A stretch of 64,000 bases of DNA. It comes from Dryococelus australis (taxonomy: Eukaryota; Arthropoda; Insecta; Phasmatodea; Phasmatidae). Made by a program: the position numbers and the translations under genes. Positions 15,346 to 63,010 of the stretch are shown one piece after another. The stretch's first letter is position 1. Each line of letters opens with the position of its first letter. The stretch lies in contig CM057009.1 of the NCBI GenBank assembly GCA_029891345.1, positions 301,979,466 to 302,043,465 of the forward strand, in the 5' to 3' direction. The notes under the pieces are model-generated. The model saw only the letters and a program-made list of their open reading frames with translations. It was not told the DNA's origin and did no database searches.

Positions 15346-15349
15346 ATAG

Positions 15350-15560
15350 TACCAGTGGTACGAAAATGATGAGTTGGGCGCAAGGGCATCGAGCATGGGA
15401 GCGCAGAAGCTGGAGAGCTGCCATTTTGTTACCTCACCGACCACCATCTTGGATGTCATTCACCTTTCACCCCTGACTCACGACCTTTGAAATTGACCCC
15501 AGGGACTTTTGACCCCAAACAAAACCAAAAACCCAAAAAAAAAAAAAAATCCCAAAAATC
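15350..15560 (-). repeat. Repeat family R, copy 1 (minus orientation)
   Basis: Read on the minus strand this matches 17400-17640 read on the plus strand: GGTCAAAAGTCCC-type sequence, CAAAGGTCG, an ATGACATCCAAGATGG-like string, then TGAGGTAACAAAATGGC and GCGCTCCCATG. It forms one arm of an inverted pair about 2 kb apart. It is non-coding and rich in GGTCA half-sites. Confidence 0.55.
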
Positions 15561-17050: not shown

Positions 17051-17399
17051 GATGAATTCTTCAGTTTGTTGACTGCTTGTATCCATACATACTAGAAAAA
17101 TGGTTTACTTATTGTCTCCCAAATTTGTACACGTCAGCGGAATTAATGTTTGTGTATGCAGTCAGCTGTCTGTGCATTTTTATACTAAAGTCTTTATTAT
17201 CAATCTATTTCCATATATTAATGTTTTTAAGCGAGTGCTCATGGCACCACTGTTAAGTTGTGAGGGATAAAGAATACGACACACAAAAAATAAAGTAAAA
17301 AATAATTTTTTATAATAATATTTTTCTTATTTTGTAATTACATTTTCACAAGAAAGCAGTTTATCACTTCATCTGATATAACCCCTATCCTTAAGTTTT
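17051..17399. other. AT-rich spacer
   Basis: Nothing recognisable between the minisatellite and the next R copy. Confidence 0.3.
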
Positions 17400-17720
17400 T
17401 AATGCTTTTTTTTCGGAATTTATTTGAATTGTTTTTGGGATTTTTTGAGGATATTTTGGGATCTTTAAAAGTTTTTGGGGATTTTGGGGGTCAACGTCAA
17501 AGGTCGTGGGTCAGGAGTAAAAGGTTAATGACATCCAAGATTGCGGTCAGTGAGGTAACAACATGGCGGCTCCCCACCTGCGCTCCCACGTCCATTGCCC
17601 TTGTACCACACTCATAATTTCCCTACTACTAGTACCACGGCAGGAAATGTAAACTAGTATGTTTAATTAGGTCAGGCACTTATTTTTATAATGGAGGCGT
17701 ATAGCTGCCTGTTTTAGTCT
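17400..17720 (+). repeat. Repeat family R, copy 2
   Basis: Plus-strand partner of 15350-15560. It contains a T/G-rich lead (GGGATTTTTTGAGG), GGGGGTCAACGTCAAAGGTC at 17486-17505, GACATCCAAGATTG, GAGGTAACAACATGGCGGCT and GCTCCCACGTCCATTGCCC. It runs into a U-type string (AGGCACTTATTTTTATAATG) near 17678, which suggests that R and U are parts of one larger compound repeat. Confidence 0.55.
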
Positions 17721-17883: not shown

Positions 17884-19655
17884 TTGAAAGGGCTCTCTCG
17901 TCGTTCAACTAAGATAAACTGTGAATACGAAGGCCTGTCTGTTACCTCGACGAACATGAAGATGCGACGTACATTAACGTCGCCTGATTGTACAACACAA
18001 CCTACCTCAGTGCTCTCCGAGTCTAAGCCTAATGTTAATAGTATTTTCCTGAAGCGATCTGCATTCAGAGGTCTTTTTAAATATTATGTTTCACCGAATA
18101 TGTATATTGTATCGAAAAATGTTTGTTGGTTCCTGTCAAGTATGAAACCAAATATGATAAACCAACTTATTTATGAGGCGCAAAAATGTGGCGGTGAAAA
18201 ATATAATATGTTGCTGGACTGTAGCTATACGAAACCAGAGCACCATGATTATGAATATTGTATTATAGCATTCAAGATCTCGAACGTAATAGAAAGAATT
18301 GTTGACGATATTATACATAAGTTATGCCAAGAGAAAGAAGAAATGGTTTCCAAGGGTTCGGGCTTGACCGTGGCTTCAGTAAATCATATAGAGCTGAGAA
18401 GAAGTGGGCTCAATCCACTTCACAAATAGGCACTTACTTATTTCCTTATACCTGAAGAGAGTTACAAAATAAAATATCAGCAAACCACAACACAAATGCA
18501 AAGCCCCGGATTATGCGAGGGGTTAGTAGTGGAGCATGAGGTGTCATTTACCGAGTATGAGGGATCAGTTGTGGAGCATGGGGGATCAATTGCGGTACAT
18601 GAGTTGTAATTAGCGGAGCATGAGTTAAAGCTTCAAGATGAACGAAGAAGTTGACTTGAAGAAACTGTTGAAGATGTAACTGCATAGTAATGTGATCAAG
18701 GAACTAGACAAAATGTCTGGTCGAATGGATGCATAATAATGCTTATAACTCGCTGATGATGCAAGCCAATGATTGTAAGAAGTATACTATAGAGTTTCCC
18801 TCTATGGATGTACCTTATCCCACTGCTGAAAATTACATGGAAAACAGTGATACTACTGTGGAAGTATCTTCAGCAAAAGCTGCCATGCTCGGGGACATGA
18901 GAGAACCACCTGTACGAAAGATCTTTTCGCGCGATGAAGCATTACAGCAATGGACAGGTGCGGTTTATGCAAGGCGATACATTGAAGGAACACATCAATA
19001 TTTGCAAGGGTTCGTCTACTGGGAGCCAGCAAGTGCTGTCAACAATACCCTTCGCTACCTCGATGGGTAATGATTCCACAGATGATTATAGCGAGACAGT
19101 TAAGAACAAAATAATAATAATAAAATTGAGAAACCTACGAGGTATGATAGATTCGGATTGGGTGGAACATACACTTGCAAGACGCCAGCATGAAGTCGAT
19201 GAACTTCAAGATAAACGGTCGTCGTCTCTAAATACTATTGATGACCATGCATCTTCTAAAAAGAAAAGTAAACTTCATATTTAGTATGAAACCGGAAGTG
19301 AATACGACCCTAAAACAACATTGATGATTATGGCTATGAATGCAGTGATAGTATTGAAGATGATGATTATCCTCCCGACAATTCCATACATTTCTCCAAG
19401 TTTCCTTTGACAGTCGTTTCGGAGAAGACAGAAGGTGCCAAAACTACTCATTACATATTTCCCGAAGACCCTAAGGAACTTGTCGATAGACTCATACATT
19501 TGATTGACCTGCAAAACCACGGGGACCTCTCACACATTTTAAAATATATCCACTTATCGATGAACTGCTGGTTAGGAGTTGTATTACATGATGAAATGAA
19601 CTGCTTTTTGCTGGACTCATTATTACAAAATAATTATCAATTATTATTATAAGTA
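17884..19655 (+). pseudogene. Coding fossil, probably from a large virus-like DNA element
   Basis: A 181-codon frame (17884-18429) contains SAFRGLFKYYVSP, YNMLLDCSYTKPEHHDYEY and GSGLTVASVNHIELRRSGLN. These resemble a conserved region I recall from arthropod and cnidarian proteins found near B-family polymerase genes of large DNA elements. Further frames follow at 18729-19067 and 18934-19284. A segment at 19440-19560 reads PEDPKELVDRLIHLIDL, similar in style to the end of the gene at 36053-36604 in the Polinton fossil. The region is broken several times and is an old fossil. The family assignment is from memory and tentative. Confidence 0.4.
18510..18630 (+). repeat. Short tandem repeat with GTGGAGCATGAGG-type units, copy A
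   Basis: About five irregular units of about 27 bp each contain GTGGAGCATG or a close variant. One frame encodes a repeated V-V-E-H pattern. A related array with shorter units lies at 20090-20215, so the two flank the fossil's 3' half. Confidence 0.5.
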
Positions 19656-20089
19656 AACTGTTTTTTTCTTTATTTTGGTGTATTTATCCTTTTTTTCCCT
19701 CACAAATTTAGAGTGGTGCTATGAGCATTATTTAATAATGTAAAGAGCTGCATACATAATATTAATGCAGAGTTTAAGTTCAATAATGCATAGATAGTGC
19801 ACTGAATACAAAATATTAAGTCTGTCTTCATGTACAGATTTGGAGACAGTTGTCATATGAATGTAAGTGATATAAATATGGGTAGGAACCAACCGATGGA
19901 TTGATCGCAGGTTCGATCTAGGTGTTGCGATTCATCGAAAGAATTATGAGAATGCTGGAAGACTGAGGGAAATATAATGAGACTGATGTAAAGATTACAA
20001 AAATTGTGAAAAATTGTTGGAAATATTGCTGCGGAAGAGGATTGCGATGGATTGATAAAAATATTGGAAGATTTATGGAAAGATTACTG
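19656..20089. other. AT-rich spacer
   Basis: No recognisable feature apart from purine-rich GGAAGATT/GGAAATATTG strings that grade into the next repeat. Confidence 0.3.
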
Positions 20090-24129: not shown

Positions 24130-24518
24130 GAAATGCCTGGTTAAGATCTACTTGTACGCACATTGTGTATTCTTCCACCTTATGTGAAATTAACATTGCC
24201 ATGGGCATCATAACTTTATCCATATCTCGGCCCAGCGAAATCGCGAAATTATAAGAAATGTAATCATTTTACAAACATGTTCATTTTTACACTTTAATGC
24301 ATAAAAAGATCAGAAAGTGAAACTAATAGAATAATTATCACAAATGGTCATCTAACACTTTTTATTCGACCTTAAAATATGTAACTACTTTCCATCCATC
24401 GTTACCCACTTTACTGTGCGCATGTCTCTCAGATCGCCCGTTACAATATATGCATGCAGGAGCAGTGATTTTTTCTAAGGTTGATTTCAAAAGTGCTCAC
24501 TTTATCGTGCACAGCCTT
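24130..24518 (+). mobile_element. TA-flanked MITE, copy D (left end eroded)
   Basis: The right end AAGTGCTCACTTTATCGTGC followed by ACAGCCTT and TA at 24519-24520 matches the family terminal repeat. The interior (TTATGTGAAATTAACATTGC) is nearly the same as that of copy C at 46596-46956. The left terminal repeat is not clearly preserved. It is inserted within a U repeat array. Confidence 0.6.
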
Positions 24519-24539
24519 TACTCAGAGCCTCTTTTGACC

Positions 24540-25707: not shown

Positions 25708-26771
25708 GAGCCGTAGTGGCCCAGTGGCTAGAGCGATTCCAAGTGGAGCAGTAGTGGCTTAGTGGATAGAGCTATTCAAAGTGGAGCCGTAGTGGCCCAG
25801 TGGCTAGAGCTATTCCAAGTGGAGCAGTAGTGGCTCAGTGGATAGAGCTATTCAAACTGGAGCCGTAGTGGCCCAGTGGCTAGAGCTATTCCAAGTGGAG
25901 CAGAAGTGGCTTAGTGGATAGAGCTATTCAAACTGGAGCCGTATTGGCCCAGTGGCTAGAGCTATTCCAAGTGGAGCAGTAGTGGCTTAGTGGATAGAGC
26001 TATTCAAAGTGGAGCCGTAGTGGCCCAGTGGCTAGAGCTATTCCAAGTGGAGCAGTAGTGGCTTAGTGGATAGAGCTATTCAAACTGGAGCCGTAGTGGC
26101 CCAGTGGCTAGAGCTATTCCAAGTGGAGCAGAAGTGGCTTAGTGGATAGAGCTATTCAAACTGGAGCCGTATTGGCCCAGTGGCTAGAGCTATTCCAAGT
26201 GGAGCAGTAGTGGCTTAGTGGATAGAGCTATTCAAAGTGGAGCCGTAGTGGCCCAGTGGCTAGAGCTATTCCAAGTGGAGCAGTAGTGGCTTAGTGGATA
26301 GAGCTATTCAAACTGGAGCCGTAGTGGCCCAGTGGCTAGAGCTATTCCAAGTGGAGCAGAAGTGGCTTAGTGGATAGAGCTATTCAAACTGGAGCCGTAT
26401 TGGCCCAGTGGCTAGAGCTATTCCAAGTGGAGCAGTAGTGGCTTAGTGGATAGAGCTATTCAAAGTGGAGCCGTAGTGGCCCAGTGGCACGAGCTATTCC
26501 AAGTGGAGCAGTAGTGGCTTAGTGGATAGAGCTATTCAAAGTGTAGCCGTAGTGGCCCAGTGGCTAGAGCTATTCCAAGTGGAGCAGTAGTGGCTTAGTG
26601 GATATAGCTATTCAAAGTGGAGACGTATTGGCCCAGTGGCTAGAGCTATTCCAAGTGGAGCAGTAGTGGCTTAGTGGATAGAGCTATTCAAAGTGGGGCC
26701 GCAGTGAACCAGTGGCTAGAGCTATTCTAAGTGGGGCCTTATTAGCTCAGTGGATAGAGCGATTCAAATAC
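25708..26771 (+). repeat. A-box satellite: 28 phased 38-bp monomers, 228-bp higher-order unit
   Basis: Fourteen 76-bp dimers follow one another from 25708 without a single insertion or deletion. Each dimer is an A monomer (GTAGTGGCCCAGTGGCTAGA) plus a B monomer (GTAGTGGCTTAGTGGATAGA). Both contain TGGCnnAGTGGnTAGAGC, a close match to the tRNA A box. Dimers 2-10 (25784-26467) fall into three copies of a three-dimer, 228-bp higher-order unit, marked by the variants CAGAAGTGGC, CGTATTGGCC and CAAACTGG. No B box is present in the array. The last monomer (26734-26771) is the most tRNA-like (TTAGCTCAGTGGATAGAGCG). Probable origin: amplification of a SINE or tRNA 5' half. Confidence 0.95.
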
Positions 26772-27000: not shown

Positions 27001-27337
27001 AATGGTTATTTTGGAACTTTAAAAGGTATTGCAATGAATTTTTTTTTCCACATAAGTAAAATATTTAATTGTTCGAGCTGTGGTTATACTTAGCCATTCT
27101 ATAGATGTTAAATATATATTTTGGTAATTATGAAATTGCGTAACTTTGCTCATGATTTTTAGTCAATTGGAAAATAAATACTTTAAACAAAAATTATAGT
27201 GATATCAGCTATATTTTTCTAAAAAAAAATCATGCGGAAATAAAGGCATTATCATGGCATTTGATTTTAGCACTTTTATTTAAAACTGCAGGTATGTTTG
27301 GGAAATTCTAAGACCCGTGTCGTGCTGCTCTCTGCTA

Positions 27338-27573
27338 TAGGCTGTTCACGGTAAAGTAAGCACTTTTTAAGGCCTTGCAAAAATTTTCCTTTTAGTCAGT
27401 TTCCATCTTTCGGCCACTTTTTAATACAACCACTGTCATGTGATTAATAAACACAACGTATATATTCCACTCCTATCAAAAGTTAACGTCTGAAGATTTA
27501 ATGAAATATATTAATTAAAGTTTGAAGCCTGTTGGAAGTGCCTTAAAAAGTTTTGACTACCGTGAACAGCCTA
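27338..27573 (+). mobile_element. TA-flanked MITE, copy A (236 bp, both ends present)
   Basis: The left end TAGGCTGTTCACGGTAAAGT and right end CTACCGTGAACAGCCTA form a terminal inverted repeat of about 35 bp. TA lies on both sides (27336-27337 and 27574-27575), as for Tc1/mariner-type elements. The interior matches copy B read in reverse complement. No coding capacity. Confidence 0.85.
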
Positions 27574-27985
27574 TAGCTAGGAGATTCCCTCATTTCGTCC
27601 GTAGTGTGAAACGGTAAAGAGGGTGAGTCGAATGGTAGTGATCATGAGGAATTACAGGGGTGGGGGGTAATTGTATGCTCTCAAGGACAGGAGTGTCCCG
27701 TTAGGGGGGAGCCGAGGAACCAGGCTTGGGCTAAAGGGTTATAACGAGAGATCGCTCGCGCAGTTGTTCACCGTACTGGCTGGAGTGTTGCCATGTTTCA
27801 CTCCGCTGCATTCCTTGCCTTCTAAGAACTAATATTTAGGGACACATTTTTGTGCCGCAATTGATTAAACTACTGAACATAGAAATGTTTTCCGCTAGTC
27901 CCGGTGAATTTATTGATGCGTAGTTTGATGTATGAAGGAAGAATATTTTACACACACATATACGAATGTTGTGTTTTCCAAGTCG
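27574..27985. other. Spacer, nothing assigned
   Basis: Moderately GC-rich to about 27830 (GAGAGATCGCTCGCGCAG near 27750) and then AT-rich. No recognisable gene. Confidence 0.3.
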
Positions 27986-28240: not shown

Positions 28241-28320
28241 TCAAATTAAACACGGAACTGGCTTAGCCGGCTACCTTGTCAAGTACCTATACAAACTTCT
28301 TAGTTGCAATAGAAGAGCTA

Positions 28321-28558
28321 TAGACTGTTCACGATAAAGTGAGCACTTTTTAAAGCCCTTCCAACAGTCATTAACAGCTAGTAAATATATCTTATTGCAG
28401 CCTCAGGCATTAAATTTTGATGGTGGTGAAATATATACACTGTGTTTATTGGTCACATTACAATGTTTATATTAAAAAGCAGCAGTAAGATGGAAATGGG
28501 ATGAAAGGAAAAATTTATAAGGGCCTTAAAAAGTGCTCACTTAACCGTGAACAGCCTA
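28321..28558 (-). mobile_element. TA-flanked MITE, copy B (238 bp, both ends present)
   Basis: Ends TAGACTGTTCACGATAAAGT and TTAACCGTGAACAGCCTA are inverted repeats, with TA at 28319-28320 and 28559-28560. The interior aligns with copy A in the opposite orientation, at roughly three quarters identity by eye. Confidence 0.85.
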
Positions 28559-29930
28559 TAAAACGATATACGTGCTAACAACAATATAATAACTACAAAG
28601 TGTATGCAAGTATACGAAAGTTTATCAAACTCTACTACCAAGTGTGCCTAATTTATATTTATTTTCATTTTTAAATTATTTTTTTAAATAGCTATATGGA
28701 GATACAGCTGCGGAATCTTTGTTCGATTGCCATTCCTAAATATGGAAATACGTAGGAAAGTGAGTGTTACCCTGTGAATCATATGACTACAGTAAAGGAG
28801 GTTTGTCTAGTTAGTTACTTTTCAGTTCCAGGCAGAGTTTACATTTTTTAAAAATATATGATCGTAAGACGTTCCATCTATTTAGCAAATATGTGTCTCG
28901 GCTACTGATTGATCCTAGTATTATTCTTGCTGCTCATGTTGTAAGTACGTCTGAAAATAGCTTGCCTCATTTATATTACTTTTGCACAACAAAATATAAA
29001 TGTTAAAAAGAATCAACATATTCTAGTGCAAGTGCGCTTTGCTAAAAACAAATGATGGATTTGTTGGAATGTTTATTCTCGTGCTATATATATTTTCCGC
29101 CGATGTTGATCAAGACAAGCATGCATTAGAATTGCTGGAATGTCAACAATACAAAATCGTTAGCATATCGTGTAGGCCATATATCATACATGAAATTAAA
29201 GCATGTGTTTTACGTCCTACATAAAATTTATTTTGTCAGTGGTTAGTGCAAGAGAGAATGCAGCAAAAAAATTAATTTTAAATTTATATCTAATGTTATA
29301 ATAAAATATTATGTATGAAAAAATATCAGTCGTAAACCAATAAAACAAGTTTATCGTTATAAAGCATGAAAACATAAATACTATAAAATGAAATTTGTTT
29401 ACGGTTCGTAAAATGTGTCGGTGTAGCCACAACTAATATGAGAGGAATGAAGCATCAATATCTAAAAGACCATGACTTTAATTTTAAAAGGATTTTTATA
29501 ATGTTATTGAAAGTTAATGTATCACATAAAATTTAATCTTCTTTTAATTGCGAAACATTGCTTAAAAAAGCTATATAAGGAGGGTTGTGAAAATTTGTTT
29601 AACTAAATAAGTTAACATTATTATGTAGTTTAAGTGTGGATAAAACTAGGCATAATGAATGTCCACAATTATATTTATATTATGCACAATCTTACAGTAC
29701 CAAACGCAAAAGACTTCGAAATTGTCATATTTTATGCGGAAACTACTCTGAATAAATTTTATTTTCGTAGTAATAACAAACACACCCAATTTTACTACGA
29801 ACGAAATGTTTGACTTCGATGTTTAATCGACAAAAGGTTTCATAACAGAGTCATCATGATAGTATAGCTGGACAACTAGTTTGACCAAGTTAAACGTAAC
29901 TCTCACCTAAACAAATATTTCCATTTAGAC
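28559..29930. other. AT-rich intergenic DNA
   Basis: No coding region, RNA gene or repeat with a recognisable partner in this window. Confidence 0.3.
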
Positions 29931-29934
29931 GTGT

Positions 29935-30290
29935 TAATATACGGTTTAACCGCAAAAAAAATTGATACAAAATGTTTTCTAACGGATTTTGACTGCAAAA
30001 GATGTATTACACGACATACTAAAAGTCTAGTTTACTCGCAGCGTTAGAAAGGGGTAATTGCCAATATGGCACCCAAAGTGACTGACGAAAGGTTGAAAAT
30101 AGATATGTGAAACACAATTTAGTATAGAAAGGTGGTTTTGGTGTCAAAACTTATGTTTTAAGTCCCAAGATGTTCAATGAAATCTAATAAATTACTCTGA
30201 ATTTATTATTAAATAAGAATTAAATTAAATTAGAATTATTCACAGTCTATTATTGACAAGTTATGGACGTTTAAGTTGCCAAAATCTTAA
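29935..30290 (+). repeat. Left terminal inverted repeat of the 3.4-kb element
   Basis: Inverted partner of 32955-33335. The best-matching part is 29945-30195. The outer limit is set where similarity fades and may be off by tens of bases. Confidence 0.6.
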
Positions 30291-30637
30291 GTGCAAAAAA
30301 AGTTAAAACCATTTTCTGTAAATATAAACAGTAAATTATGGTTTTAAAATTATTAAGAAACCATATTACACCCAATAGACTAATCATATCTTTTCACATA
30401 AATTACTTACTACTCAAAATTGCTTAATACATCTGGGTGGTTTTTTGTGAAGTCGAGTCATTTATTGAACATAGAAGTGTGAAGATTTCAAATAATTATA
30501 ATGCCCTGCTGCACCGAATATTGGAAGGCAGTCAGAAACAGCATCAACCAGAACCTGTTCGATTTGCCATTATTAATGACCTGGCAACTGCAACCATCCT
30601 TTGATAATTTAACCATAATTTACTTGTCTTAGACCTA

Positions 30638-32837
30638 CCACACAGTTCCATCTTCCTTTTCCCTAATTTTTTTAATTTTACTGAGTGTTCTTGATTTTAA
30701 TAATGTTTCTAACGTCACCTCGACATTCAGTAGTGCACTATACTCCTCACATGTTCCAACCATTGTTGCACAATCTGGTTCTTCATTCGTCATCTCGGAC
30801 ACCATTGTACGATTTAGACAGTTTTCTACAAGAAGATGGCCACGAAATGTTCTCTGAACCGATTTCCCGGTCATCATACGAGCTACTGCATTCTCGCCAT
30901 AGACTACTCCTGGAATGTCAATAAGTCCTGTGCCTGCCATAAGTGAATCAACTGCTCCCAGCAAATTCATGAACATGTGGAAGCTCCCTAGGAGCAGGGC
31001 AATGGATTTCAGATGGCTGTCTAATGGAAAATCGGTGTATATCTCTACGGCCTTCAAGTCCAGAGGCTGATCGAATTTGACTATATGATCAAGGTGGTGC
31101 TTGGTCGCAAGCCTACAAAGGAACTCCAATGTTGAAAGAATGCAAGTCTTGTCCCCGGAATACATGCCTATCATTGGTAGATACCTGATTGAAGACTGAC
31201 TTGGGTGTTCGTTTCCCTGATGAATAATGTGCATCATCCCGTACCGACCTGGCAGTGCATTTCTGAGACTGAATGATAATTCTCACAATATATCCACTTT
31301 CTTTTCACATTCTGGAAGACTCGGAAGTACTGGGAATTTTACATCTTGATGGAAATTTTTTGTTGAAATATGATCTACTATCGGAACTTTTGAAATCTCC
31401 ACAATGTTAATATCCATAGTTTTGTGCCTAGGGAAACTGTAAACTGTCTTCTGCCCTGGAGTCAATACAGCTATCATACCCATTCAGTGAAAAGTTCCTT
31501 GCCGATTGATTGTAATAATGTTGTGAAAAACATTGTCTGCTGCAAATAGCACTGCTGTGTTCCTTACATTAATATCGCTTCCAAGTATGTTTGAAGTAGC
31601 AAAAATAGAAGCATTTTTTTCAAACCTGTGCATTTCACTAAATGAAGAGCAGAACCCCATCTTACACAAGGTGTCTACAAGAAACCTCGACCTATATAAG
31701 TGACGCATTTGAACTGGAAGATACATTTGCAATAGTGCAATGACAGCTCTTGGACGAACTGCTTGAATTATTGCCTAACCTAAGCTGGCCACTTTCTGCT
31801 GAGTATCTTTCCCCACAAACATTGTGTTTAACAGAATACGAAGGTATTCGGGAATGTAATCAATAGCTGGATAGAGACCGACAGTCTCTGTTGTGGGATA
31901 ATGTTCTTTCACTGATGGCATATTTGTTTCAATGTTACTTTTAATGAGCCTTGCTACTTCCTCAATTATTGTTCTCTTCTGTGACTCATTTTCTCCTTAT
32001 TTTAAAGTGTTGAAATATGTCCTGAGAATGTGTGCAGTTTTCTCTCTCATTGTAACTATATCATGTAAACTATCTCCATCTGCAATGTGTATAGAAGTCC
32101 CATATGGTTCCCTCAGATGTTTTTCTAGGTACTGATTACCATAGAGTAAGGAATTAATATTGTCTAGCAAATACTCCATTTTGCTCTTCAGGTCAAACGC
32201 TGTAAGCTGTTCTTCATCATTTGCTTCTAGGTAAGCACACATTTTTGAAAATGCTTGTTCTTTATCTTCATTCTCAGGCCTTCCCGATTTCCTTCGCTTT
32301 ATCTCAGGGTTACTTCGAAATAGCTGGGGTTTATTACGGCCACAACGAAAATGTCTGCTACAAGTGTGATGGTACACGCAGTTAGCAGCATGAAGATCAC
32401 CATTAAAGTATTCGATTCTACCTTTTACTTTGAATGACCATTCATCACGACGACTATCACAACATTGCAAAATTGTGTTTGTAAATATATCAGTTTTTAC
32501 AGAACTATATCCTGCACTACTCACTTCCAGAACCCTTTTGCCGCAACAAAAGCAGTCAGTTTTGCCATTGAATGTAACTTCAGACACTCTAGTACGCCTT
32601 TGAGTATTACCAGATTCTCCCAGATGTTTCCTCTTCAAATGAAGTTCTATTTCTGTTTTATTGTACACTTTGCGGCAGTTTGTATGCACTTTACTGCCAG
32701 TACTCACAGTAATAGTGTCACCTCTCTGCGAACTTGCTGCATTTATTCCATCTGCATTAAACATGAACTACATCATACCCAACACCCACTTGGATATGAC
32801 AAATTAGACAAGATTCATCAGCACTGAATGCACTCAT
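30638..32837 (-). pseudogene. Decayed gene of a widespread uncharacterised family (CxxC N-terminus, DNxxHN and PxW-type C-terminus)
   Basis: The likely start codon is at 32837-32835 (MSAFSADESCLICHIQVG), placing a CxxC pair at the N-terminus, followed by VHTNCRKVY and a second cluster with CFCCGKRV. The middle part includes RSRFLVDTLCKMGFCSSFSE and ADNVFHNIITINRQGTFHWM (32 kb down to about 31480). The C-terminal part includes GMMHIIHQGNEHPSQSSIR, VKFDQPLDLKAVEIYTDF, LLGSFHMFMNLLGAVDSLM and MTGKSVQRTFRGHLLVENC. I recognise these blocks as a family scattered through fish, cnidarians, spiders and insects, with no function known to me. About four breaks interrupt it. The zinc-binding N-terminus plus TIRs suggest a transposase, but no DDE triad could be assigned by eye. 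Confidence 0.65.
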
Positions 32838-32954
32838 TTTTAACCTGGTACAGACAATATAAATAACGTAAATAGAAACCCTATTGACTACATTATTATC
32901 ATATGTATTATTAGCAACTTTACAAAATAATCAAACATGCAAATAGCCAGCAAA

Positions 32955-33335
32955 CAGGTACATGCCCGATTAATAATAGCCCATTCCAAATGATTAAAAT
33001 TTCATCTAGAACCCAATATTGAAATGGTGGCTGTGAATTCTAAACTGAGGGTATTTAACTTGATTTCATTGAATTTATTGGGTCCATAAACTTGGGGTTA
33101 GACACCAAAATTACCTTCCAAGGTTGAATAGCTTTGAGATACAACACTTTTCATCTCATGATAGGCTCCTTGGATGCCATCTTAAAAAAAAAAAAATCTC
33201 AAGGTCACAGAAAATTAGACTTTTACTTCATCTTTGAACTTAGCCCTAGGAGCCAAAATCAGTTTAGAAATTTTTGTATAAATTTTTTTGGGGGTTCGGC
33301 TATTATTTGTCGTATATTGACCCGTCTAATTATGA
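32955..33335 (+). repeat. Right terminal inverted repeat of the 3.4-kb element
   Basis: Inverted partner of 29935-30290. Its inner end lies only about 120 bp upstream of the likely start codon of the gene, so the promoter would sit within or beside this arm. It has an A run at 33184-33197 missing from the left arm. Confidence 0.6.
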
Positions 33336-33340
33336 TTTTG

Positions 33341-33899
33341 AAAGTACTGATGCATATTAGTGTCGAAGAATCATGAGAAGATAACTGCCGTGTTTGTCTT
33401 AGGTTTACTTATAAATTATGGCAATTTCCTTTCACAACGCAAACAACCAATAAATATACCAGAAATTATCTTATCTGGAAAATCTTCTAACATTGCATTA
33501 ATTTCGCTAAGAACTTAAAAGTCTTGAATATACTAAGAATCTTTTAATTATTTGCTTTATGTGCGCTCATCATTACACTAGTCACTATGCAAAAAAAATC
33601 TCAGTGAAATTAAATCGTTGATTTATGTGAGTCATGATAATACAAAAGGATATTTTTCAAAGTGCTAAATAATGAGGTAAAGAAATAACAAATTAATTTT
33701 CATGCAGTTACTTGACCTCTCCTTGTCGTTTAACCTTTCTTCATTTATGTGTGCTATTTACCATTTCATTGACTAATACGGCATAGGTTTGAACACAACC
33801 TCTATGCAGGTGCTGCCATTAGCAGTAGTCAGAAAAAGGTCATTCTGACTCAACAGGCGCCAGGCTGTAAACTGGCGGACTGGCTCCAGCGAATTAAGG
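33341..33899. other. AT-rich spacer
   Basis: No recognisable feature between the TIR element and the Polinton-type fossil. Confidence 0.3.
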
Positions 33900-35194: not shown

Positions 35195-36015
35195 AAGCAA
35201 CAATTTGGTCACCCATTGTTTGAAGTGGGATTGGAAGGGAAACCACTTCACGAGGACCTGGTCGCCACGTCTACAGACCATATGCTACACGAAATAGTCA
35301 TTGGGATATTTCGTGATGTAAATTTCGTAGTTGTAGAAAGAACCACTGATCCTTTGGCCAGCCATATCGACGAGCGTATAGGTGTGTGGGGACACTCCAT
35401 GTTCGGATAGTAAGACTAATCAAAGACACCTTTGCTCCTGGAGGTAGATGAAATCGCCAACCTTTGACCTTGGCCAGTGTGGGTTCAACTACTTGGAGTG
35501 TCTGTACACAGTGTGCAGTAGAGAAGTGGTGTTGGGAGCAGTAACTTCAGATGGACGAAGACCAGTCGTCCTATGCTTGTGTGTATTGTACTGAGTAAGG
35601 AGTCGAGGAAACAGATACAACCACCGGTAGCTACCCTGTGCCAAGAACGCCTTCCATATCAGACCCCTAAACTCCTGTTGAATCGTTCGACGACAAAATC
35701 CTTGTAGTCGCTGAATGTAGAATAGTGATGAATATTCTTCGCCTCCATAAGCACATGGAACACAGGGTTATAGAATTCCTTCCTACTGTACATCTGGACA
35801 CTCTTCGGTACGATCACCTTGTCCAAAACCAATTTCATTGTAACTGCAATATCAGCACCATACTTCCGGCGCACAGGGACGGCCCAACCATACTTGGAGA
35901 AACAGTTGATAATCATCAGGATGTAGTGGAAGCCTTTAGTTATGCTGGAATAAGGAATCATTTCCACCAAGTTGGCCTGGAACAAGTCATGATATTCGAA
36001 GAGAAGCACCTTACA
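35195..36015 (-). pseudogene. Integrase of the Polinton-type fossil
   Basis: The rve core reads DLFQANLVEMIPYSS, then GFHYILMIINCFSKYGWAVP and later VVERFNRSL, as in Polinton integrases (35659-36009). Downstream on the same strand short pieces match the integrase C-terminus: THKHRTTGLRPSEV near 35590, GSFYNYEI near 35325, and a chromo-like GDQVLVKWFPFQ near 35250. This enzyme family joins the element to the host chromosome. It is broken and fossil. Confidence 0.75.
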
Positions 36016-36052
36016 TCTGGGGAAGGTCTCTACATAGTCGTGTGTCAGGCAC

Positions 36053-36604
36053 TCACTGGATATGGACGGATTCGCTGAGCTCTTCCAAGATATTCACTAT
36101 TTCATTCATGTGATATATATTGCCAGCTTGCCGGAATCTAATGAAGAGACAGAAACCACCCACAAGCTCAGTCACGTCATCCCAATAGACGCATTCCACC
36201 CGGTTGTCACCATCAAGCTTCAGACCCGAGCCACTCACACCGATGCCTGGAAACAGTTCTTCGATAATAGCGAATTTAGGGTGTATCTCGTCCTGATATG
36301 CATGGCGGCTAGCAGTATTGTATTCCAAATAGGCATGTGTCGTCTGCAACAACTGCTGGTACTGGTGAAGAGCTGCAGGGGAATAATCCCCAATCACATG
36401 TTTAAACAGCAGCTCGTAGAGGCTGGGCGAGGCTTGCACGACGACATCCCCTACCTGGATAATGTCGTTGGGCAAAAATAAAACTTGTTTGTCGCCCAGG
36501 AACCACATCTTCCGTGCTTGTACATACTGTAAGTAGAATAATTTAAGTGAGGCGATTAAGAAGTGAGATGATAGTGAAGAGCCATAGAGTGTGCATTGGA
36601 TCAC
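36053..36604 (-). pseudogene. Polinton-associated conserved gene, function unknown
   Basis: The 183-codon minus-strand frame contains FLGDKQVLFLPNDIIQVGD, SPSLYELLFKHVIGDYSP and ends with AGNIYHMNEIVNILEELSE. I recognise this layout (a W/F-x-GDK block, then a P-L-ELL block, and an A-N-HNEI-I-EEL ending) from a gene that regularly accompanies Polinton-like integrases in arthropods and cnidarians. The function is unknown. The gene lies directly upstream of the integrase on the same strand. It is the longest uninterrupted frame of the fossil's minus-strand block after the coiled-coil gene. Confidence 0.6.
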
Positions 36605-48254: not shown

Positions 48255-50000
48255 ACATATCGCCAGGCCCTAAATTAGTCGCAGATACATTTAATTCATA
48301 CTACTTAAATGCCGTAGAAAACATGATTATAAAACCACTAAACAAGATATAAACCCTATTTCTATACTACAGGGTACAGAATGCCCTGCTATATCTTTTA
48401 CATGCACAACTCCAAAAGAAGCGGAGAAAAATAATTAATTCTTTGCAGCCAAAATTACCTAGCGGCTATGATGGCATTAGCTGTACGGTATAAAAGCAAT
48501 GCGCTTTTGAATTCAGTGTTTCATTAAGCCATATTTGTAATGATATCTTCAATACAGGATTGTTTCCAGGCAGACTCAAATTGACTATGGTAACACCATT
48601 GTTCAAGAAAGGAGACAAGGCCGAAGTAAACAATTATAGACCCATCTCACTTCTTACCTCCTTTTCAAAAGTAATTGGAAAACTAACTTACAGGAGGTTG
48701 CTGCAACATTTTGAGAATCACAAATTCTTATCAAATTTCCAGTTCGGCTTTAGGAAAAACACGCTAACAATAAAGCAATTTTCAAACTAACAAAAAGCAT
48801 TCTTAATACACTTGATAAAAAGATGCCATCTAATGGAATATTTTGCGACCTCACTAGAGTATTTGACAGTGTAAATCACAACATGCTTATAGAAAAATTA
48901 AAGTTTTATGTAGTCTCAGGTACACCAAATAAACTAATAAGCCTATATCTTTCAAACAGACAACAAGAAGTACTTATCAAAGGAAAAACTATTTCATTCT
49001 ACTCTGAACTAGGAAAAATCAAGCATGGGGTCCCACAAGGATCAATATTAGGCCCCCTACTCTTCCTAGTTTGTATAAATGACCTTCCATGTCCCTTAAC
49101 CCCAGAAACTATTCCAATTTTATTTGCAGATGATACTAGCATCTTAGTCTCTGGAGACTCAGTAAATGATGTTACACAAAAAACGGACACAACATTTACA
49201 CAGCTAAATGCATGGTTTACTGCAAACAAATTAAATCTCAACTTATATAAAATATGTCTTATGAATTTCCTCACAAAGAACAGAAAAAAAACATTAATTC
49301 ATATGTTAGCAGTAACAGAGACAAAATTAATGAAACTGCAATGATTAAGTTTCTTGGTTTAAAAGTAGACAATTTGACTGGAAATCTCACATTGCGTATA
49401 CTTTACCTAAACTAAGTTCAGCATGTTTCGCCTTGCGGAATGTTGCAAAGTTCTTGAACAAAAATACAGCAAAAATTGTACATTTTGCATATTTTCATTC
49501 CATCATGTGTTACGGTATAACTTTTTGGGGTAATTACACTGACAGCAAAAAAGTGTTTCACATGCAACAGAGAGCTGTAATAATAATCAATGGCATAATG
49601 AAGTCAGACTCATGTGGACCTCTTTTCAAGAGTTCAGAGATTTTAACATTTGCATGCGAGTACATGTTTTCAGTACTTATATTCATGTTCAAAAACAGTC
49701 ATTTATTTCAGAAAAATTAGTCCTTTTATAAGCATGACAGAAGAATAAATAACATACGTGGCTTCAGTTAACTTCAAAATTGTCCAGAGAGGGCCATCTT
49801 ACCTTGGTAGCCAACTTTTCAATAAGTTACACCACCTTCAAGAAATTTACTTCGCTAACCAAACACTCTTTAAAAACAGCTGAAAGAATTTTTTTTCTCA
49901 ACTAACATTTTATAGTGTAGATGAATATCTAAACTACAAAAATTAAGAAATAATAGCATAACATGTCTTTGTACACATTTCATGTTCCGGTTTTTCTCGT
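48255..50000 (+). mobile_element. 5'-truncated LINE, Jockey/CR1-like reverse transcriptase
   Basis: Translation gives ADTFNSYYLNAVENM near 48280, QPKLPSGYDGISC near 48450 and VTPLFKKGDKAEVNNYRPIS near 48590-48650. RT blocks follow: CDLTRVFDSVNHNML, then GVPQGSILGPLLFLVCINDL (49027-49086) and catalytic FADDTSILVSGD (about 49123). The thumb and C-terminal region includes HSIMCYGITFWGN near 49498-49540. Coding sequence ends near 49945 at VDEYLNYKN. The large frames 48560-48790 and 48823-49344 are separated by frameshifts, so the element is dead but much better preserved than the LINE at 21.4 kb. The missing endonuclease indicates ordinary 5' truncation. Clade assignment within the Jockey/CR1 group is uncertain. 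Confidence 0.85.
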
Positions 50001-58949: not shown

Positions 58950-60200
58950 TTCTACTCCCTTGTACTGTTCAATCACATTTATTTCTGCCCATACTGCATC
59001 CAATTTGTTATGTTTCGCCTCATGTATTTGTTCCTGCGAATCTGGCAGAAGAATATCTTCCCACTATGCCTCGTCATACATGGCAACATCTGTGTTTGGT
59101 GCTCAGGACATTGGATCTGCCAACTCATTTTCTGCCCAGGGGCGTGTTCTACAGCAAAGTCATATGCCTATAGAAACAGCACCCACCGGGTGAGTTTACT
59201 ACATGCCTCCTGCATACTATTGAGCCATGCTAAATATCATTTATCTGTGGGTAATGTGAATCTTTGGTACTCGACATAAGCACTGTAATTTTTGATAGCC
59301 CACACTACTGTCAAATATTCCCTTTCGTTTGCATCATATCTACATTTCGTTGGCCCTAGTTTTGCACCTCGCATACTCAATAACATGCTTTCTCCCACCT
59401 TCTCGACACTGGTATAAGACAGCACCCAGCCCCTCCTGACTGGTGTCGATCTGCAAAAATAATTGTTGTGTACGATCGTATCGAGCTAGTGCTGTACATG
59501 ATTTAAACTGTTCTTTAATGCCTACAAATGCTGGCTCTGTTTCATTGGTCCAAACAAATTGCTTCTGTGGTGACATTAATGCTGTTAAATGTGCTGTGAT
59601 GATTGCAAATTTTTTTTTGTATTCTCTTATCCAGTTAACAAGGCCAGAAAATTTGTGTAATTGTTTACGTGTATGTGGCAGATGTTGCTGGTCAATAAAA
59701 TTTATCTGCTCCGGATTCGGTTTGTTTCCTTCTTCAAGTACCACATGTCCCAGGAAATCTGACTCTGTCTTGCCGAGGTCACATTTCTGGATAGTGCATG
59801 TTAACCTGTTCATTGCCAACCTCTCCAAAACCAGCGACGGGTGTTTTATGTGCTCTTCAGATGTCTCCGACCTAACTATTACGTCGTCCAAATATGCTAG
59901 GGTGCATTCGCCTATCAGACCATCCGAAAGTCGCACCATCATATCTTGGAAGCTGGCAGGTGCACATTTCAAGCGAAACGGCATGGCGCAAATCTGATGC
60001 TCGGTTCTGTCTGGTGCCGTGAAAACTGTCTTTTTCCTGTCTTACAATTTTACCGGTATTTGCCAGTGATTGAAGGGCGTCTTTAACGCTTATATAAGGT
60101 GGTGATGCACTGCTTGTAATGTCATTGATGGGCAGGAAATCGACACAAAAGCGCCATCCTCCATCCTTTTTTGGGGCAAGAGTAATTGCAGAATTGAATT
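58950..60200 (-). pseudogene. Reverse transcriptase and RNase H of the Gypsy fossil
   Basis: The frame 59340-59984 reads MPFRLKCAPASFQDMM, then LAYLDDVIV (the catalytic YLDD of Ty3/Gypsy RT), FLGHVV, LHKFSGLVNW and FVWTNE. RNase H onset is at LFLQIDTSQEGLGAVLYQ. This is the most easily recognised part of the element. Fossil. Confidence 0.85.
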
Positions 60201-62799: not shown

Positions 62800-63010
62800 A
62801 TAATTTTTTCTCTCATTTTTTTTTGGGATTGCCAGGGTCAAAGGTCACCGAGATCAATGTCAAGGTCATGGGTCAAAGACCATGGTCGAGCTCAATTACA
62901 TCCAAAATGGTGGATGGTGATGTAACAATATGACGGTGGCCGGCTCCTGCACTCCTATACCAGATACCATTGTGCCTGACTTGCCTAAATCCTACTACTG
63001 TCAATAATGG
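62800..63010 (+). repeat. Repeat family R, distant copy
   Basis: TTTTTGGGATTGCCAGGGTC, then GGTCAAAGGTCACCGAGATC, a TACATCCAAAATGGTGG string, GTGATGTAACAATATGACGG and CCTGCACTCCTATACCAGAT line up in order with the copy at 17440-17640. Contains a GGGTCA-A-AGGTCA direct repeat at 62835-62847. Confidence 0.55.

Follow-up and report, generated by a model that had tools for sequence, protein, structure and literature searches.

A broken gene between terminal inverted repeats in Dryococelus australis is probably the remnant of a cut-and-paste DNA transposon

What kind of element encloses a broken gene of unnamed family between two inverted repeats in the genome of the stick insect Dryococelus australis? 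The question arises at positions 29925-33329 of the window, by which we mean the whole stretch of 64,000 nucleotides analysed here (NCBI GenBank assembly GCA_029891345.1, contig CM057009.1, positions 301,979,466 to 302,043,465 of the forward strand); all coordinates below are those of the window. An original prediction, made from the sequence alone, held that this gene is the core gene of a DNA transposon of a possibly undescribed type. The first part of that proposal is well supported by the anatomy of the locus, which is that of a DNA transposon with the enclosed gene as its core gene. The simplest account, and one that we consider likely to be correct, is that 29925-33329 is an old and inactivated copy of a terminal inverted repeat (TIR) cut-and-paste DNA transposon with its own transposase gene. 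We read the locus in this way because it has sharp inverted ends, a single enclosed gene, two Cys/His clusters in the N-terminal part of that gene, and no Pfam family above the cut-off. The second part, the undescribed type, is not supported, as the presumed features of the gene's family favour AcademX, a lineage of the Academ superfamily, which is already known.

The inverted repeats are formed by a left arm of 286 bp on the plus strand (29925-30210) and a right arm of 294 bp on the minus strand (33036-33329). When the right arm was reverse-complemented and aligned locally to the left arm, the score was 74, far above 200 dinucleotide shuffles (mean 24.7, standard deviation 3.5, maximum 36), and the alignment runs over 299 columns, 281 of them ungapped, with an identity of 190/281 (68%). 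Hence the inverted repeats first placed around the gene are present, and it is their length, put at about 350 bp, that had to be shortened. The similarity of the two arms starts at a matching point on either side. Just inside the arms the score is 15, against a mean of 14.9 in 300 plain shuffles, and just outside it is 16, against a mean of 17.8 in another 300; both are at shuffle level, and the repeat is therefore sharply bounded on both sides. An alignment with cheap gaps that extended the arms into the gene was discarded because these inner stretches are no better than shuffles. The outer ends carry the motifs TTAGACGTGTTAATATACG (29925-29943, plus strand) and TTAGACGGGTCAATATACG (33311-33329, minus strand), which have 17 of 19 bases in common. 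A pattern built from both 19-bp ends, with up to 3 mismatches allowed, matches the two ends and no other place in the 64 kb (0.08 matches expected), and the inner limits of the arms gave no match in this search.

Between the arms lies a formerly coding region of a single gene that is now broken. One frame of the minus strand over 30608-32839 has 10 stops in 744 codons. The remaining five frames have 29-60 each, and 300 shuffles give 52.6 (standard deviation 6.8, minimum 34). Four of these stops fall in the main body of the gene (30638-32764), three lie 5' of 32764, and three are at or after 30635. There seems to be a frame change near 32765, and there are more past 30640. The likely N-terminus (MSAFSADESCLIC...), with the first CxxC, is at 32771-32837 on the minus strand, in a frame that differs from that of the next piece, so that the start codon and the link between the two pieces are tentative. 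It is followed on the same strand by an N-terminal open reading frame (ORF) at 31997-32764, a putative transposase remnant, and by a long C-terminal ORF at 30635-31237. A frameshifted continuation at 30417-30630, also on the minus strand, is in two frames, neither of them the main one, and matches a hand-typed piece of the family (see below). Over 30413-30640 the two non-main frames hold TSKLWLNYQRMVAVARSLIMANRTGS and SDCLPIFGAAGHYNYLKSSHFYVQ, after which NHPDVLSNFE stands in the main frame; their order is that expected of the family. These matches move the end of the gene from 30635 to about 30417. From the tail to the left arm (30210-30440) there are 7-9 stops in each frame.

The placement of the gene at equal distances from the arms, as first claimed, depends on where its limits are drawn. 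By ORF limits the gaps to the inner arm ends are unequal, at 424 and 271 bp, and with the frameshifted tail and the likely start they become about 206 and 198 bp. The claim that the repeats hold no other gene agrees with what we see, as no second gene was recognised among the ORFs of at least 80 amino acids. The other ORFs of that length between or across the arms are an antisense one at 32465-32827 (120 amino acids) and one at 33134-33376 (80 amino acids) that crosses the right arm's outer limit.

The N-terminal part of the gene contains two Cys/His clusters of the form CxxC...HxxC, where the original prediction had named one. The first is CLIC...HTNC, with its HxxC in the N-terminal ORF, and the second is CFCC (32543-32554) followed by HAANCVYHHTC (32360-32392). 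Both are likely to be zinc-folded and DNA-binding. Downstream of the clusters are two hydrophobic stretches that each end in Asp, VLFAADN and HIVKFDQ, with the two Asp residues 154 residues apart. These may be the first two residues of an Asp-Asp-Glu (DDE) catalytic site. The candidate first Asp (D435 of P0001, codon 31535-31537) is in LFAADNVFHN...GTFH at 31487-31558 on the minus strand, and the candidate second Asp (D590 of P0001, codon 31070-31072) is in the VKFDQPL of the long C-terminal ORF, which is followed by LLGSFHMFMNLLG.

If the gene encodes a transposase, the 3.4-kb element would work as follows. Its inverted ends would be the sites that the transposase binds and cuts, and the single gene, read from right to left, would supply that enzyme. 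Intact copies would cut themselves out at their two ends and insert elsewhere, leaving a short duplication of the target, perhaps of 3 bp. The present copy seems to be without the C-terminal, presumably nuclease-like part of full-length members; it is thus probably internally deleted and would have needed a helper. A candidate 3-bp target site duplication, ATT, is found at 29923-29925 on the left and at 33329-33331 on the right. It is a weak one, and with it the element would be drawn TAGACG...CGTCTA. At an alternative offset the element is drawn GACG...CGTC, with TA on either side. Neither ATT/ATT nor TA/TA proves a target duplication, because random flank pairs would agree over 3 bp, at one or other of four offsets, with a chance of 0.056.

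Several observations weigh against the transposon reading. Self-comparison of the whole window at E <= 1e-4 (E, expectation value) gave 8 inverted pairs, all of which outscore the arm pair; the arms, only 68% alike, are not among the 8. Six of the 8 listed pairs stem from two dispersed repeats, a short element at 27.3/28.3 kb and a repeat at 15.3/17.5/62.8 kb. Inverted pairs are not rare in the window, so the case relies on how sharply and symmetrically the arms end and on the gene between them, and not just on the score of their alignment. The element is known as one copy in the window, where no further copy was found (best other match E 0.052 for DNA and 0.024 for protein), and its candidate duplication is near chance level. 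No Pfam family reached the cut-off for the gene pieces of the window and none of the matches is named as a transposase; NCBIfam gave no match, and no PHROGs match names a transposase. A single-sequence structure model of the protein has a predicted local distance difference test score (pLDDT) of 33.7 and is unusable for recognising an RNase H fold. Finally, the five family pieces that we compared with the window were typed by hand after the window had been read, and their E-values are thus flattering.

Weak family matches were also looked at. In PHROGs, residues 166-205 of the N-terminal ORF match an unnamed family of unknown function (E 0.00099), along with two weaker matches. OTU protease (Pfam E 0.016 and 0.065), DUF7296 and UPF0449 (E about 0.1), and Mustang (E 0.26) were set aside as below the cut-off or chance matches. 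In the PDB, a search by sequence gave a single match, which is unrelated (E 1.2).

We take the family of the gene to be widespread in animals, with full-length members that presumably have a C-terminal nuclease-like part and D-A-D and GEDTDLL motifs. Four of the five hand-typed pieces match in order on the minus strand of the window: the N-terminal piece at 32572-32327 (E 2e-18), the piece over the region of the first Asp at 31487-31558 (E 9e-5), the second-Asp piece, 50% identical over 31084-30815 (E 6e-25), and the C-terminal piece in two segments within 30417-30630, in frames outside the long ORF (combined E 7e-11). When the C-terminal piece was shuffled 200 times, 2 shuffles fell below E 0.01, the best at 0.002. 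Stray matches of the matching pieces reached E 0.072 at best, and no match of a reversed piece fell below 0.13. Since the window had been read before the pieces were typed, these matches are a sign of consistency and not an independent test. The fifth piece, from the nuclease-like part, has no remnant in the window (best E 0.11 at 842-895, far from the gene), where patterns made from its motifs are also unmatched. That piece is unrecognised by Pfam and has no match by sequence in the PDB.

Which transposon is it then? The alternative that survives best, which narrows the account above and keeps its mechanism, and to which we give a substantial though not the larger share of belief, is that the locus is a decayed and internally deleted member of the Academ superfamily, in its AcademX lineage, and thus of a type already described. 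AcademX is pointed to by the nuclease-like part that full-length members presumably have, together with the possible ATT duplication; the likeness comprises a TIR DNA transposon, a possible 3-bp duplication and the presumed architecture of full-length members. For the nuclease of AcademX, which we assume to be Xpg-like, no counterpart was found in the present copy, which may be deleted there; the failure of Pfam to recognise the hand-typed nuclease piece counts against this assignment, as does the near-chance ATT match. The account in PMC10045372 gives AcademX target duplications of 3 or 4 bp, which the possible ATT/ATT duplication would fit, and has the two Academ lineages differ by whether a helicase or a nuclease is encoded. 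The other lineage, AcademH, differs from our element in its duplication of 9 or 10 bp: over eight offsets the flanks agree at best in 6/9 and 6/10 positions, and the duplication of an old copy may have decayed. It differs also in its helicase, as none was found among the Pfam matches of the element's pieces, and here too the copy may be deleted. AcademH is reportedly the subject of a 2020 Academ paper by Kojima. Because this copy showed no nuclease tail and the comparison with Academ covers architecture and target duplication, the element is not filed as Academ; it is classed as a TIR transposon, with the superfamily left unassigned.

A second alternative, which we regard as unlikely, is that the element belongs to a transposon superfamily found in no catalogue, with the same mechanism and a transposase unrelated to the named superfamilies. 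Such a superfamily would be marked by two CxxC/HxxC clusters in tandem at the N-terminus, by catalytic Asp in DNxxHN and FDQPL, by (G/S)FH where others have C/DxxH, and by TIRs of ~290 bp that come with a short target duplication. The absence of a Pfam model at the cut-off for the gene pieces speaks for it, as does a literature search, in which the parts of papers returned held no description of such a transposon. The comparison with family catalogues, however, covered Pfam, NCBIfam and PHROGs, and a missing Pfam model says little about Repbase; the presumed features of the family favour Academ. In the named superfamilies Kolobok, hAT, P, MuDR and Dada, a C/DxxH motif lies between the second D and the last E. 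At its place after the candidate second Asp we see GSFH, which also speaks for a separate superfamily; this was judged by eye, assumes that the second Asp is the correct one, and concerns a residue that may have mutated.

These known superfamilies resemble the element in other respects. Kolobok is a TIR transposon found in animals, and the present ends can be drawn as 5'-GA...TC-3' (RR/YY). It was rejected, as its target duplication is given as TTAA in PMC9587614, whereas the flanks at the matching offset are TTTA/TAAT, and it differs also in its C/DxxH. Dada, hAT, P and MuDR are alike in a DDE cut-and-paste mechanism, which is assumed for our element, and Dada transposases also have zinc-finger motifs according to PMC3706591. 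They differ in their C/DxxH, which is not seen here, and in that no matching Pfam model was found. DUF6589 (PF20231) is drawn by the hand-typed C-terminal piece, for which it is the sole Pfam family, at E 0.042 and 13 bits for the piece alone and at E 0.0032 and 16.7 bits when the piece is joined to that with the second Asp, over the same 55 residues. These scores are below its cut-off of 27 bits, and the gene pieces taken from the window itself gave no match to the family. A literature search on DUF6589 gave no account of the family, its single match being from physics.

The last alternative, a host gene or stray gene fragment caught between two chance-inverted copies of an unrelated dispersed repeat, draws on the other inverted pairs of the window (the short element at 27336-27578/28316-28560 and the repeat with a third copy, at 15349, 17487 and 62835), but it is improbable: a search of the 64 kb gave no third copy of the arms, their inner limits carry no end motif, they stop symmetrically and sharply on the outside, and the whole remnant is enclosed at similar distances.

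Relatives of the gene were sought in IMG/VR, GTDB contigs, and phage and plasmid records, i.e., among viruses, prokaryotes, phages and plasmids, with few animal sequences. No relative was found in IMG/VR, where pattern matches occurred in 6 stretches and in 1 stretch with none confirmed, or in the GTDB contigs, where 13 stretches matched and none was confirmed. The phage records, searched with the read-through protein and a hand-typed family piece, and the plasmid records, searched with a 200-amino-acid ORF and a hand-typed piece, gave none either. One viral contig in IMG/VR (locus L001) has a 131-amino-acid ORF with GGLHIEM in common, which was taken as chance. In view of the collections searched, these null results carry no information on the family's frequency among animals.

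The surroundings of the element contain other repeats. The strongest inverted pair of the window consists of two copies, 78% alike, of a ~245-bp element resembling a miniature inverted-repeat transposable element (27336-27578 and 28316-28560). This short element is itself bounded by inverted repeats (GCTATAGGCTGTTCACGGT...), and 36 bp of it occur again at 24485-24520. Inverted arms at 17113-17390 and 19570-19848, 71% alike, enclose a 181-amino-acid ORF (17884-18429) with no Pfam match at E <= 0.1. The dispersed repeat present at three places covers 15349-15500, 17487-17635 and 62835-62976, and a tandem array at 25708-26768 has 14 copies of a 76-bp unit with 95% matches. On the minus strand, 35659-36604 contains two ORFs with no Pfam match, whose products appear to resemble proteins of Polinton/Maverick-type elements, namely the integrase-like and companion ones. 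Two retroelements are represented by reverse transcriptase fragments, at 48823-49344 and 59340-59984 (RVT_1, and in the second also RT_RNaseH_2). RNA families and tRNAs were not found in the 64 kb. With its reverse transcriptase fragments, its tandem arrays and no RNA gene, the content of the window is that of a repeat-rich eukaryote.

The ends and motifs reported here suffice for testing the family on a full genome. A curated family model, of which Pfam gave none for the pieces in the window, would clean up annotation. Many invertebrate genomes presumably have large numbers of 'uncharacterised' proteins of this kind. If the reading as an unnamed superfamily is true, the 'uncharacterised' animal proteins that presumably carry such motifs would be its unrecognised copies. 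Should the family be one of transposases, inside Academ or apart from it, counts of such 'uncharacterised' genes would be counts of transposon copies.

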